Positions 51,507 through 54,304 of a stretch of DNA of 64,000 bases are shown piece after piece (the first letter of the stretch is position 1; each line of letters opens with the position of its first letter). Source of the DNA: Halothece sp. PCC 7418 (lineage in GTDB: Bacteria > Cyanobacteriota > Cyanobacteriia > Cyanobacteriales > Rubidibacteraceae); the NCBI RefSeq assembly GCF_000317635.1, contig NC_019779.1, positions 2,418,001 through 2,482,000 on the forward strand, given 5' to 3'. The notes under the pieces were generated by a model. That model made no database searches and was not told where the DNA came from. It saw only the letters and a program-made list of their open reading frames with translations. A program made the translations under genes and the position numbers.

Positions 51507-51580
51507 AGGACATCCCACGAACTCCCGTGCAACACACGAAGTTTGTGATATTCTCCTGTTAACCCAGAACTTCCATCAAA
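51507..51580 (-). pseudogene. Short fragment of the FGE-like gene ending at its variable region
   Basis: On the minus strand it reads DGSSGLTGEYHKLRVLHGSS then WDV, parallel to DGSPWLTGGDHKLRVLRGGS WDV of the intact gene at 52214. Similarity stops two or three codons into the variable block. The block GGGATGTCC is identical in both, so it was probably copied from this gene. Confidence 0.7.
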
Positions 51581-51587
51581 TGAAGAA

Positions 51588-51950
51588 TTAGTTGGATTGA
51601 TCTAGAGTTTCCTTGATAATATCTTCAATTTCTGATGCAGTGATATTCGTTTGTTCTGATTTCGCATAAATGACTAAAAGTAAGATAATTTCATTGCCAA
51701 AAACTTGATAAATAATCCGATATCCTCCGCTTTTTCCTGTGGGAATATCACTATTTTTTGCCCGTACCTTAAAGACGGTTTGTGAAACACCAATAATTTG
51801 AGTTCCGACAAGATTGCCAGCCTTTATTGCTTCGAGTACAGGGTTAATGTCTTCTCGGATTTGACGATAACGTTTGCTTAGTTTTTTGAGACGACGCTTA
51901 AAGGGCTCAGTAAAGCGAATTCTTTCATTTATTCTTCGATTCCTTCCCAA
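51588..51950 (-). CDS. RelE/ParE-type toxin
   Basis: 120 residues from a TTG codon; the first 10 residues are uncertain. FTEPFKRRLKKLSKRYRQIR, DIPTGKSGGYRIIYQVFGNE and IILLLVIYAKSEQTNITASE IEDII are a RelE-superfamily mRNA interferase, with Arg/Lys-rich helix 1 and the beta hairpin with GGYRIIY. It overlaps the upstream antitoxin gene by 22 bp. Probably intact. Confidence 0.8.
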   Translation of the reverse strand: MGRNRRINERIRFTEPFKRRLKKLSKRYRQIREDINPVLEAIKAGNLVGTQIIGVSQTVFKVRAKNSDIPTGKSGGYRIIYQVFGNEIILLLVIYAKSEQTNITASEIEDIIKETLDQSN

Positions 51951-52165
51951 AGTTCTTCCAGAGGAAAGGTTTTTCCTTGTTTCGCGTCGATTAGGCTTTG
52001 CTTAAAGTCTGCAATTAATTCAGCTTTGCTGTCTATGGGGTGGGTTTCTGCGGTTAATGCTTGTAGAATAGTTTCCCAAGTGTCTAAGGGAATTAATACA
52101 TCTGTGGTTTTTCCTTCTTGGTTGGTCAGATAACGAACCTGTTGTTGGATATGTTCTAAATTCAT
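51929..52165 (-). CDS. Antitoxin partner of the RelE-type toxin
   Basis: 78 residues. MNLEHIQQQVRYLTNQEGKT TDVLIPLDTWETIL is a Phd/prevent-host-death-like start, followed by a helical toxin-binding tail (ADFKQSLIDAKQGKTFPLEE LWEGIEE). It precedes and overlaps the toxin gene. Such antitoxins usually repress their own promoter. Confidence 0.75.
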   Translation of the reverse strand: MNLEHIQQQVRYLTNQEGKTTDVLIPLDTWETILQALTAETHPIDSKAELIADFKQSLIDAKQGKTFPLEELWEGIEE

Positions 52166-52213
52166 GTTTTTTGTATCTGAATCGCGCGATCGATTTCCTT
52201 AAAATAACAAGGG

Positions 52214-53218
52214 CTAGAGAGTCCTTGCGACTGAGGAGACAACCCGAAAACCGAGGTTGAAGTAGCCGATATCGGGGACGTACCCGTAACGGTTGGCGCA
52301 ACGGCAGAGCCACGGAAGGACATCCCATGAACCCCCGCGCAACACACGAAGTTTATGATCTCCTCCTGTTAACCAAGGACTTCCATCATTGGGCGCTCCC
52401 TCATAATTCTCATGCCATACATCTTCGCACCACTCCCAGATATTCCCGTGCATATCGTATAAACCAAACGCATTGGGTGGAAATGACCCCACTGGTGTTG
52501 TTTTCTCTCGATAAATTCCTTCTTTCCCGTTGCCATAAGTATAATTGCCATTATAGTTTGCTTGGTCAGTGCTGATGGTTTCCCCAAAGTAAAATGGGGT
52601 GGTTGTTCCCGCACGACAGGCGTATTCCCATTGGGCTTCTGATGGCAGTTGATAGATTTTCCTTGTTTGTTCGGATAACTTCTGACAAAATTCTTTTGCT
52701 TTGTACCAAATAACACCCTCTACTGGATTATTTTCTCCCTTAAATGAAGAAGGGTTCTCCCCCATTACGGCTTTATATTGTCTTTGAGTGACGGGATATC
52801 TCCCCATATAAAAAGGGGCAATTTCTACTCGATGTTGCGGTCTTTCCCAGTCATAACTGTCTTTTTCTGTCTTTGGTGCGCCCATGATAAAACTTCCCCC
52901 TGAAATATAGACCATTTGGGGTAACTTTTTATAGTTTTCTATGGCAACTTTTAACTCTTTTGATGGGTTAGGTTGCTTTAACAGCAACTCATAAGCTGTG
53001 TTGCTTACTCTCAGGCTTTCATCTTCCAAGGAAGCAATCACTAACGCTAATCCTTCCTCACCATAGTTTAAGGCTTGATAGAGGGCATCTTCTCTCACTT
53101 CCTCTTCTGGGGCTTGTAACCGTTGCTTGACCCCTTGTATTCCCCCTAAAACCAGCGATCGCTGCGGGGTTTTCTTTCCCCCTAAAACCGCATCGGTGTC
53201 TTTTGGTTGTTGTGCCAT
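52214..53218 (-). CDS. FGE/SUMF1-like (CLec fold) protein with DAVLGG leader; candidate DGR target
   Basis: 334 residues. Leader MAQQPKDTDAVLGGKKTPQR, then SLVLGGIQGVKQRL and a HEAT-like cap (about 30-100), both shared with the LRV protein. From about 108 the formylglycine-generating-enzyme domain follows: MVYISGGSFIMGAPKTEKD, YPVTQRQYKAVMGENPSSF, LPSEAQWEYACRAGTTTPFY and MHGNIWEWCEDVWHENYEG. The end LRVLRGGSW ... CRCANR ... NLGFRVVSS is the region diversified in DGR target proteins. It contains many NNC codons consistent with an AAC-rich template. A catalytic Cys pair is not obvious, so ligand binding rather than sulfatase maturation is more likely. Confidence 0.88.
   Translation of the reverse strand: MAQQPKDTDAVLGGKKTPQRSLVLGGIQGVKQRLQAPEEEVREDALYQALNYGEEGLALVIASLEDESLRVSNTAYELLLKQPNPSKELKVAIENYKKLPQMVYISGGSFIMGAPKTEKDSYDWERPQHRVEIAPFYMGRYPVTQRQYKAVMGENPSSFKGENNPVEGVIWYKAKEFCQKLSEQTRKIYQLPSEAQWEYACRAGTTTPFYFGETISTDQANYNGNYTYGNGKEGIYREKTTPVGSFPPNAFGLYDMHGNIWEWCEDVWHENYEGAPNDGSPWLTGGDHKLRVLRGGSWDVLPWLCRCANRYGYVPDIGYFNLGFRVVSSVARTL
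52256..52327 (-). other. Candidate DGR variable region (VR) in the FGE gene
   Basis: 24 codons, from Trp of GGSW to Asn of NLGF. Against the pseudogene copy at 54086-54157, 24 of 72 bases differ; 22 of these are at first or second codon positions, and the invariant codons are TGC, CGT, TGC, GCC, CGT and CCC. The adjoining 3' sequence CTCGGTTTTCGGGTTGTC is identical and could be the IMH. Confidence 0.75.
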
Positions 53219-53303
53219 ACTCTTTAATCGCTCTCACTCCCCCTTAATTTATCACTGCGGAACATTTAAAATTAAGATGAGATCAAGAGGTGATTGAAAA
53301 ACA

Positions 53304-53549
53304 ATGAGTCTAACGATTTCAGATGACATTCTGCAAACTGTAAACATGACAGAAAGGGAACTCCTGATTGAAATTGCTATCTTGCTATTCCAACAGGAAC
53401 GATTTACCCTTGGACAAGCCAGTCATTTTGCTAAAATGAATCAACTTCATTTTCAAAGATTGCTTGCGAGTCGTCAAATTCCCCTTCATTATGATGTTGA
53501 GGAACTGCAAGAAGATGTTCGTACTTTAGAGGCTAATGGTTGGCAATGA
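53304..53549 (+). CDS. UPF0175 family antitoxin
   Basis: 81 residues. ISDDILQTVNMTERELLIEI AILLFQQERFTLGQASHFAK MNQLHFQRLLASRQIPLHY is the UPF0175 ribbon-helix-helix/HTH family, partner of DUF3368 PIN-like toxins. The toxin gene starts 4 bp before its stop (ATGA). Intact. Confidence 0.88.
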   Translation: MSLTISDDILQTVNMTERELLIEIAILLFQQERFTLGQASHFAKMNQLHFQRLLASRQIPLHYDVEELQEDVRTLEANGWQ

Positions 53550-54028
53550 GTATTGTAAGTAACACTTCTCCCATTAGCAATCTTGTTGCCATTCAAAATT
53601 TAAAATTATTGCAACAACTCTATGACAAAATTATCATTCCCCCTGCTGTTTTTAGGGAATTGACAAATGCTGGAAATCAAGAACCAGCATCGATCGCGGT
53701 GAGAACATTAGATTGGATAGAAGTCAAAGCGATTTCTGACCAAAGTCTGATCTTAACTTTACAGGCTAATTTAGATAGAGGAGAAGCAGAAGCCATTGCA
53801 CTTGCGGTTGAAATTGGAGCAAAACGTTTAATTATTGACGAACGAAGGGGAAGAAATGAAGCAATTCAATTAGGTTTATCAGTGACGGGCGTTTTAGGAA
53901 TTTTACTAGCAGCTAAACAGCGAAAACTTATCCCTTTCGTCAAACCTCTCTTGGATGAATTAAGAGCTAAAAGTTTTTGGGTTCATGACACTTTATACAG
54001 TGAAGTGATTCGATTAGCTAAAGAATGA
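53546..54028 (+). CDS. DUF3368 PIN-like toxin
   Basis: 160 residues from MSIVSNTSPISNLVAIQNLK. The family Asp is replaced by Asn in SNTSP, as is common in DUF3368. LLQQLYDKIIIPPAVFRELT, LDRGEAEAIALAVEIGAKRL IIDERRGR and GVLGILLAAKQRKLIPFVKP complete the PIN-like core with Glu/Asp metal ligands. Coupled to the UPF0175 antitoxin. The only PIN-type toxin in the region that appears complete. Confidence 0.85.
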   Translation: MSIVSNTSPISNLVAIQNLKLLQQLYDKIIIPPAVFRELTNAGNQEPASIAVRTLDWIEVKAISDQSLILTLQANLDRGEAEAIALAVEIGAKRLIIDERRGRNEAIQLGLSVTGVLGILLAAKQRKLIPFVKPLLDELRAKSFWVHDTLYSEVIRLAKE

Positions 54029-54043
54029 AAAAAAGGCATTGGG

Positions 54044-54304
54044 CTAGAGAGTCGTCACGGATGACGAGACAACCCGAAAACCGAGGTTGCTGTAGTCGTC
54101 GTCGGGGTTGACCCTGTTACGGTAGGCGCAACGGCAGTTCCTCAGATCGCTGAGCCAAGAACCCCGCGCAACACACCCCCTTTGTGATATCCTCCTGTTA
54201 ACCAAGGACTTCCATCATTTTGAATGCCTCCTAAAACCAGCTGATCGCTGCGGGGTTTTCTTTCCCCCTAAAACCGCATCTGTGTCTTTTGGTTGCTGTG
54301 CCAT
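54044..54304 (-). pseudogene. Internally deleted FGE-like paralogue retaining leader and variable region
   Basis: It keeps the leader MAQQPKDTDAVLGGKKTPQR S, then jumps to the C-terminal part (NDGSPWLTGGYHKGGVLRG). A one-base deletion in a G-run shifts the frame; restored, the end reads GSWLSDLRNCRCAYRNRVNP, DDDYSNLGFRVVSS. The variable block (54086-54157) has a different residue set from the intact gene while flanks are unchanged. The middle 200 or so codons are missing, so it is non-functional. Confidence 0.8.

Follow-up and report, generated by a model that had tools for sequence, protein, structure and literature searches.

Probable orphan targets of a diversity-generating retroelement in the cyanobacterium Halothece sp. 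PCC 7418

Halothece sp. PCC 7418 carries a short array of genes related to the formylglycine-generating enzyme (FGE), consisting of the intact gene A and its broken copies B and C. Together with a further copy, D, in a congener (genome G003), these genes are very probably former targets of a cyanobacterial CLec-type diversity-generating retroelement (DGR) whose machinery is gone and whose variants are frozen. The targets can be classed as DGR variable proteins; the locus itself cannot be classed as a DGR. The array lies in the window, i.e. the whole stretch of 64,000 nucleotides that was analysed, and window positions are used below unless a locus or contig is named. Its features are as follows, with VR denoting a variable region, TR a template repeat and R1 our model of the TR.

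52214..53218, minus strand: gene A, intact, 334 amino acids, FGE-sulfatase/C-type-lectin-like, probable orphan DGR target
52244..52327, minus strand: VR of gene A, WDVLPWLCRCANRYGYVPDIGYFNLGFR; R1 matches 52239-52339 with 38.4 bits
52214..52243, minus strand: conserved tail 3' of the VR of gene A, GGTTTTCGGGTTGTCTC, common to A, B, D and the C copy of the congener
54044..54304, minus strand: copy B, a pseudogene that keeps both the start-codon and the C-terminal end, lacks the middle and has single-base indels
54074..54157, minus strand: VR of copy B, WLSDLRNCRCAYRNRVNPDDDYSNLGFR; R1 matches 54069-54165 with 61.2 bits
51507..51578, minus strand: copy C, a third FGE gene remnant that ends 8 nt into the VR; TGGGATGTCCT at 51507-51517 is identical to A
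51588-51950, minus strand: ParE-like toxin gene between A and C; Pfam ParE_toxin 23.9 bits, cut-off 23
51929-52165, minus strand: small ORF upstream of the ParE-like toxin gene, between A and C
53304..54028, plus strand: pair of genes in the A-B interval, UPF0175 (Pfam E=8.6e-23) and DUF3368 (Pfam E=1.4e-18)

Copy B retains approximately 85 bases from the start and 175 bases from the end of an FGE gene, and the loss of one base directly upstream of its VR has put this VR in a different frame from the preceding bases. Copy C is an addition to the first-pass annotation, which had described A and B from the sequence alone. Small toxin-antitoxin-like genes occupy both the A-C and the A-B spacer, and the array is flanked by the same neighbour genes in two species, Halothece sp. 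PCC 7418 and G003. In G003, the corresponding neighbourhood (L083) holds copy D and a different C remnant, and the 5' part of D is replaced by sequence that, judged by eye, resembles a transposase gene. The conserved tail of gene A occupies the site at which DGR targets carry their homing-initiation sequence, and it may have had this role. The toxin-antitoxin-like block at 51540-52225 is 98.7% identical to G003, compared with 75-94% for the other long matches, which possibly reflects either a recent exchange with the congener or strong constraint.

Gene A belongs to the Pfam family PF03781 (E=6.6e-58), and its top match in the PDB is PvdO (E=1.5e-39). Variable protein 1 of Treponema denticola (PDB 2y3c), a DGR variable protein of related fold, matches gene A with E=3.1e-22, and the C-terminal stretch of 2y3c is aligned to gene A through the VR. 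Thus, Pfam, R1 and the PDB alignment place a 3'-terminal VR in a C-type-lectin/FGE domain, as is typical of DGR targets. Structures of formylglycine-generating enzymes match with E=6.2e-21 and weaker, including PDB 1y1e (E=6.6e-21), which we take to be the human enzyme with Cys336 and Cys341 as its catalytic cysteines, and gene A falls into the same sequence family. In the alignment to 1y1e, gene A has three residues fewer from GGS to RCA; one of the two catalytic cysteines has a cysteine opposite in gene A and the other is replaced. Because of this missing cysteine, we infer a ligand-binding rather than an enzymatic role for the gene A product, and sulfatase modification is unlikely. The genome contains two further FGE-sulfatase genes, which we rejected as carriers of a VR or TR, as R1 has no match there at E<=10. 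The nearest relatives of gene A from named genomes include those of Thiotrichaceae and Thiomargarita metagenome-assembled genomes (L108, L109, L110, L115), with 52-58% identity, and at L115 a DGR-type reverse transcriptase (RT) motif lies about 2.4 kb away.

The evidence for a DGR origin starts with the codon positions at which the copies differ. The VRs were compared over 28 codons, from TGG to CGG, on the minus strand (A, 52327..52244; B, 54157..54074). A and B differ at 24 of the 84 bases, distributed as 12, 10 and 2 over codon positions 1, 2 and 3, which reproduces over 28 codons the first-pass count of 24 differences with 22 at first or second positions and two at third positions. The flanks, which had been described as unchanged, are indeed the same in A and B (TGCCGTTGCGCC and CTCGGTTTTCGGGTTGTC), and the variable codons, described as mostly NNC, end in C or T except at three sites that have G in every copy. 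Between A and D, positions 1 and 2 differ at 22/56 sites in the VR versus 23/278 upstream (two-sided P=4.4e-8), whereas position 3 is at background, with 7/28 in the VR versus 25/139 upstream (two-sided P=0.43); the upstream reference in both cases consists of 139 homologous codons. When the same test was run over 540 upstream bases, it gave P=0.20, with a span that crossed the transposase junction into unrelated sequence. The excess lies at positions 1 and 2, and the template codons AAC and AAT have their adenines there.

To locate adenines in the template, we gathered 17 template-like repeats with at least nine Asn codons each from other genomes of the order. Eight of them come from loci picked for a DGR RT, and the other nine were taken without an RT check nearby; 14 of the 17 match the VRs here in length, six of these from RT loci. 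TRs elsewhere share the VR layout, e.g. WNNNPRNCRSANRNRNEPDNSNNNIGFR and WNNNPRNCRCANRNNNTRDNKNNNLGFR. With the six RT-locus TRs, the A-B differences fall on 18 of the 28 columns with adenine in at least three of the six, versus 6 of the 56 other columns (P=7e-7). In the test with 14 TRs, a column was called an adenine column if at least 90% of the TRs have adenine there (18 columns) and a non-adenine column if at most 10% do (50 columns). The differences then occupy 13/18 adenine versus 3/50 non-adenine columns for A-B (P=1.2e-7), 13/18 versus 7/50 for A-D (P=1.1e-5) and 11/18 versus 6/50 for B-D (P=1.2e-4; all one-sided). Five control comparisons within DGR loci, whose TRs are among the 14, gave 5-9/18 versus 0-1/50. 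The seven (A-D) and six (B-D) differences in non-adenine columns are therefore above the control loci, which counts against a DGR origin. Relative to a reconstructed template, the leftover changes are C/T exchanges at third positions and one second-position C-to-T change in B, and one further site has no clear template base. Variation is thus found at template adenines, with the third position at background, as expected for DGR targets, together with some non-adenine changes in A, B and D that we read as later ordinary mutation.

The third bases of the variable codons point in the same direction. Ten codon sites could be fixed from outside templates, and all ten end in C or T in each of A, B and D. 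Over 14 inferred-template sites, 42/42 codons are pyrimidine-ending (log10P=-7.06 from local codon usage, if independent), a count that omits the three variable sites ending in G in all copies and that comes from related copies which are not quite independent. For comparison, we surveyed 19 FGE genes with a standard-length VR out of 30 loci examined, in which the pyrimidine share upstream is 0.35-0.72. At degenerate template-Asn codons, pyrimidine ends were found in 22/23 cases for six genes from genomes with a strong hit to Brt, the RT of the Bordetella phage DGR, and in 43/49 cases for 13 genes without such a hit, or in 32/38 cases for 10 genes when A, B and D are left out. The high share without a strong Brt hit means either that there are further orphans or that the third-base test has its limits. 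Adenine-directed mutagenesis from AAC to NNC, which had been proposed in the first-pass annotation, is supported by the columns of outside TRs and by third-position divergence at background. On the basis of this imprint on codon positions and adenine columns, a DGR most likely wrote the VRs of A, B and D.

Neither an RT, an Avd gene nor a TR had been seen in the window, and searches across the whole genome (a single contig, 4,179,170 bases, completeness rating 100%) likewise found none of these parts of a complete DGR (a DGR-type RT, a matching TR and Avd). Seven RVT_1 matches occur in the genome. With Brt as query, its best match has 24.7 bits (E=1.8e-5) and lies at a UG35-type defence RT, compared with 93-125 bits (E=1.8e-26 to 3.3e-36) in 11/60 related genomes. 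A cyanobacterial profile built from 10 DGR RTs also has its best match in this genome at the UG35-type RT, with 44.1 bits; controls gave 668.4 bits in G005 and 656.5 bits in G007, both members of the profile, and 228 bits for a G005 fragment outside it. As DGR RTs we rejected all seven RVT_1 matches: L001, which scores as group II, L006, which scores as retron-like, L085, which scores as UG35-type, and L002-L005, which reach 38-42 bits with the DGR profile. Avd (PF22296) has no match in this genome; among the 11 genomes searched, it is above cut-off in G005, G007, G017 and G022 and weak, below cut-off, in G003 and G006. In the congener G003, no DGR RT at control strength was found, and R1 gives only the VR of D.

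Two of the rejected RTs lie in settings of their own. At L085:1807-7739 (contig positions ~1822306-1828238), the UG35-type RT (1196.6 bits) is adjacent to an RTasHel helicase (1030.5 bits), and the two are a candidate DRT defence system. At L006:1276-3151 (contig positions ~2740132-2742007), a retron-like RT of 374 amino acids is followed by an ORF of 244 amino acids; this RT is under the NCBIfam cut-offs, and its best PADLOC models are types XI and XII.

The search for a template gave a similar picture. Among the best 150 of 1925 candidates in this genome, R1 has the VR of B at 61.2 bits, the VR of A at 38.4 bits and the next candidate at 19.6 bits, compared with 77-93 bits for templates in G005, G007, G017 and G034, of which the G007 TR (77.5 bits) is outside the model. 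Blastn and a degenerate pattern with three mismatches also detected no TR in the genome, and a 24-base template piece, searched with up to three mismatches, matched in 14/388 other genomes, never exactly. A score cut between TR and VR was rejected, as real TRs fall to 61.1 bits (G041) and 64.7 bits (G044); the score alone does not separate B from these. We nevertheless call B a VR because gene sequence continues upstream: its match to A extends over 63 columns of gene sequence upstream of the VR, and it also retains the start-codon end of the gene, which excluded B as a TR. The first-pass annotation had regarded a genome lacking both RT and TR as evidence against its proposal. This lack is what we found; it counts against a present-day DGR in this genome and not against a DGR origin of the VRs.

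Copy C provides information on when rewriting stopped. The VR pieces kept by C, GATGTCCT here and TCGGCTACTTCAACCTC in G003, both equal A exactly, an identity that spans 25 VR bases only. Just before the VR, A and C differ at 8/64 bases and A and B at 7/63, yet within the VR A and B differ as described above. So A and C have one VR allele in common, through duplication or conversion. Because the VR pieces of C are identical to A, there seems to have been no rewriting of the gene A VR after A split from C, with the proviso that conversion between A and C would give the same identity. As a recent exchange of 51540-52225 with G003 is possible, this freezing carries no date relative to the species split. 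The annotation had left the source to act in trans or to be lost; the absence of RT, Avd and TR from a complete genome, in combination with copy C, favours the second part in the wider form of lost or left behind and disfavours action in trans.

DGRs are present in relatives. In G005, a member of the genus, the RT of one DGR locus contains an in-frame TGA, and on G005 contig 89 (L087:1000-2000) a second DGR has Avd above cut-off and an RT that ends after about 190 profile positions, followed by other sequence. Decay of DGRs is thus visible in this genus. The TR of G005 has the wording CRSAIR, compared with CRCANR here, and is one residue longer, and it was therefore rejected as the direct source of A, B, C and D. 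In G007, a shortened template-like stretch, SWNDNSRKCRSTYRNNNIGFR, starts at L088:13323, apart from a DGR RT with an open frame.

Phage DGR targets are described, in the available part of PMC3240598, as having a hairpin or cruciform downstream of the VR with a GC-rich stem of 7-10 bp and a GRNA loop. Downstream of the VR of B (54041-54074), a 6-bp stem TCGTCA/TGACGA encloses a TCCG loop, and the C copy of G003 (L083:4105-4130, partly by eye) has the 6-bp stem TCCTCA/TGAGGA with the same loop; between the two stems, one base pair is altered on both sides, and the stems are weaker in A and D. The TCCG loop of B is not GRNA, A and D have no stem of at least 5 bp with a loop of 3-5 nt downstream of the VR, and none of nine variable-protein rows at RT loci has the hairpin within 70 nt. 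A hairpin 3' of the VR thus gave an uneven signal among A, B, C, D and these rows. On the template side, 9/18 TR rows have a hairpin with a GGGA or GGAA loop just 3' of the TR, at the following positions.

L055, L056, L057, L058, L062, L091, L094, L095 and L096: TR-side hairpins, 37-49 nt past the GFR codons of the TR

These loops match GRNA, the rule given in PMC3240598 for hairpins on the VR side in phage DGRs.

The most probable course of events would begin with a template of approximately the wording W-NNN-PRN-CRCANR-N-R-NN-PD-N-D-NNNN-GFRVV, whose adenines would have been read at random during reverse transcription. The resulting cDNA would have homed, by a mechanism presumably like that of other DGRs, into the 3' end of each gene, and the copies would thereby have received different binding surfaces. 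RT, Avd and template would then have disappeared from this lineage, or the targets would have been acquired without them. As all three are absent, the VRs would now be inherited as ordinary sequence, with A persisting as a single fixed variant while B and C decay.

A variant of this course, compatible with it, is that diversification of the copies took place in a donor before their transfer, so that this lineage never had a DGR. The 98.7% identity of 51540-52225 to the congener, against 75-94% in other long matches, agrees with such a transfer, as does the lack of a close gene A orthologue in the congeners G001, G002 and G004 (best E 1e-15 to 1e-12). However, the array lies between the same neighbour genes in two species, and DGR loci are present in G005; we consider diversification in a donor rather unlikely, though it keeps a real share of the probability. 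A second possibility is that a DGR outside the sequenced genome, on a plasmid, a phage or a strain-specific island, still occasionally rewrites these targets in trans. Such service to remote targets has been proposed for genomes with DGRs (available parts of PMC10907252 and PMC7517822), and the two DGR loci of G005, the second of them broken, show that the machinery occurs in the genus. Nevertheless, the genome of Halothece sp. PCC 7418 is a single, 100% complete contig; copy B has no blastn match among 50,697 phage records and, among 72,556 plasmids, three with 70-74% identity; the 24-base template piece has no exact match in viral contigs; and the TR of G005 reads CRSAIR instead of CRCANR. 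As the VR of A also seems unaltered since its split from C, continuing action in trans is improbable.

The proposal with the least credit is that no template was involved and that FGE paralogues diverged at the binding loop by diversifying selection. In its favour, FGE genes without a strong Brt hit are also largely pyrimidine-ending (43/49, or 32/38 without A, B and D), but the genomes in question are equally readable as further orphans. Moreover, a pyrimidine at the third base is not dictated by selection on amino acids, and such selection would not spare the columns that are non-adenine in the templates of other genomes. We therefore regard this explanation as highly improbable and retain a DGR origin followed by loss or abandonment of the machinery as the preferred reading.

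Several known systems resemble these genes in part. As in the cyanobacterial CLec-targeting DGRs described in the available text of PMC7517822, the C-terminal module is CLec-like and the VR is close to the 3' end of the gene; in contrast to those genomes, which were chosen for having a DGR, no RT, Avd or TR was found here genome-wide. T. denticola, the source of 2y3c, is likewise described there as DGR-bearing with surface targets, which differs from the situation here. The target of DGR 1 in Thiohalocapsa PB-PSB1 resembles our case in that its VR matches the template at non-adenine sites and is non-varying today, but template and RT are found elsewhere in that genome (PMC10907252, available text). 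For all3226 of Nostoc PCC 7120, Vallota-Eastman 2020 (PMC7517822, available text) report remnant TR-VR homology without a proximal RT and propose removal of the machinery after selection. The idea of an orphan target is therefore already in print; what is new here is that no DGR is detectable genome-wide and that the VR is placed relative to a duplication. In the literature searched we found no report of the Halothece sp. PCC 7418 case, and the name Halothece is absent from the available text of PMC7517822 and PMC10907252.

In a survey of the order, covering 194 genomes of at least 95% completeness with 20 candidates scored per genome, R1 matched at E<=1e-6 in 130 genomes and with at least 71.9 bits in 29. 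Since real TRs can score as low as those of G041 (61.1 bits) and G044 (64.7 bits), and since a conserved, plain FGE motif is also recognised by R1, the remaining 101 genomes set an upper bound for orphans and do not count them. A hit-and-run mode, in which DGRs are transient and, in many members of the order, the receptor variants persist after the machinery has gone, is a tentative extension that we hold to be possible, with the chances somewhat against it.

If it is true, the FGE-type receptor genes of these members would be alleles once written from a template and since passed on, duplicated and selected in the absence of a DGR. The present case indicates that the product of a DGR may be recognised without a detectable DGR, by using codon positions and borrowed templates alone. 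Should orphans be common, surveys based on RTs would undercount DGR-shaped genes, and the question would arise whether the hypervariation machinery is dropped once a useful receptor has been found.
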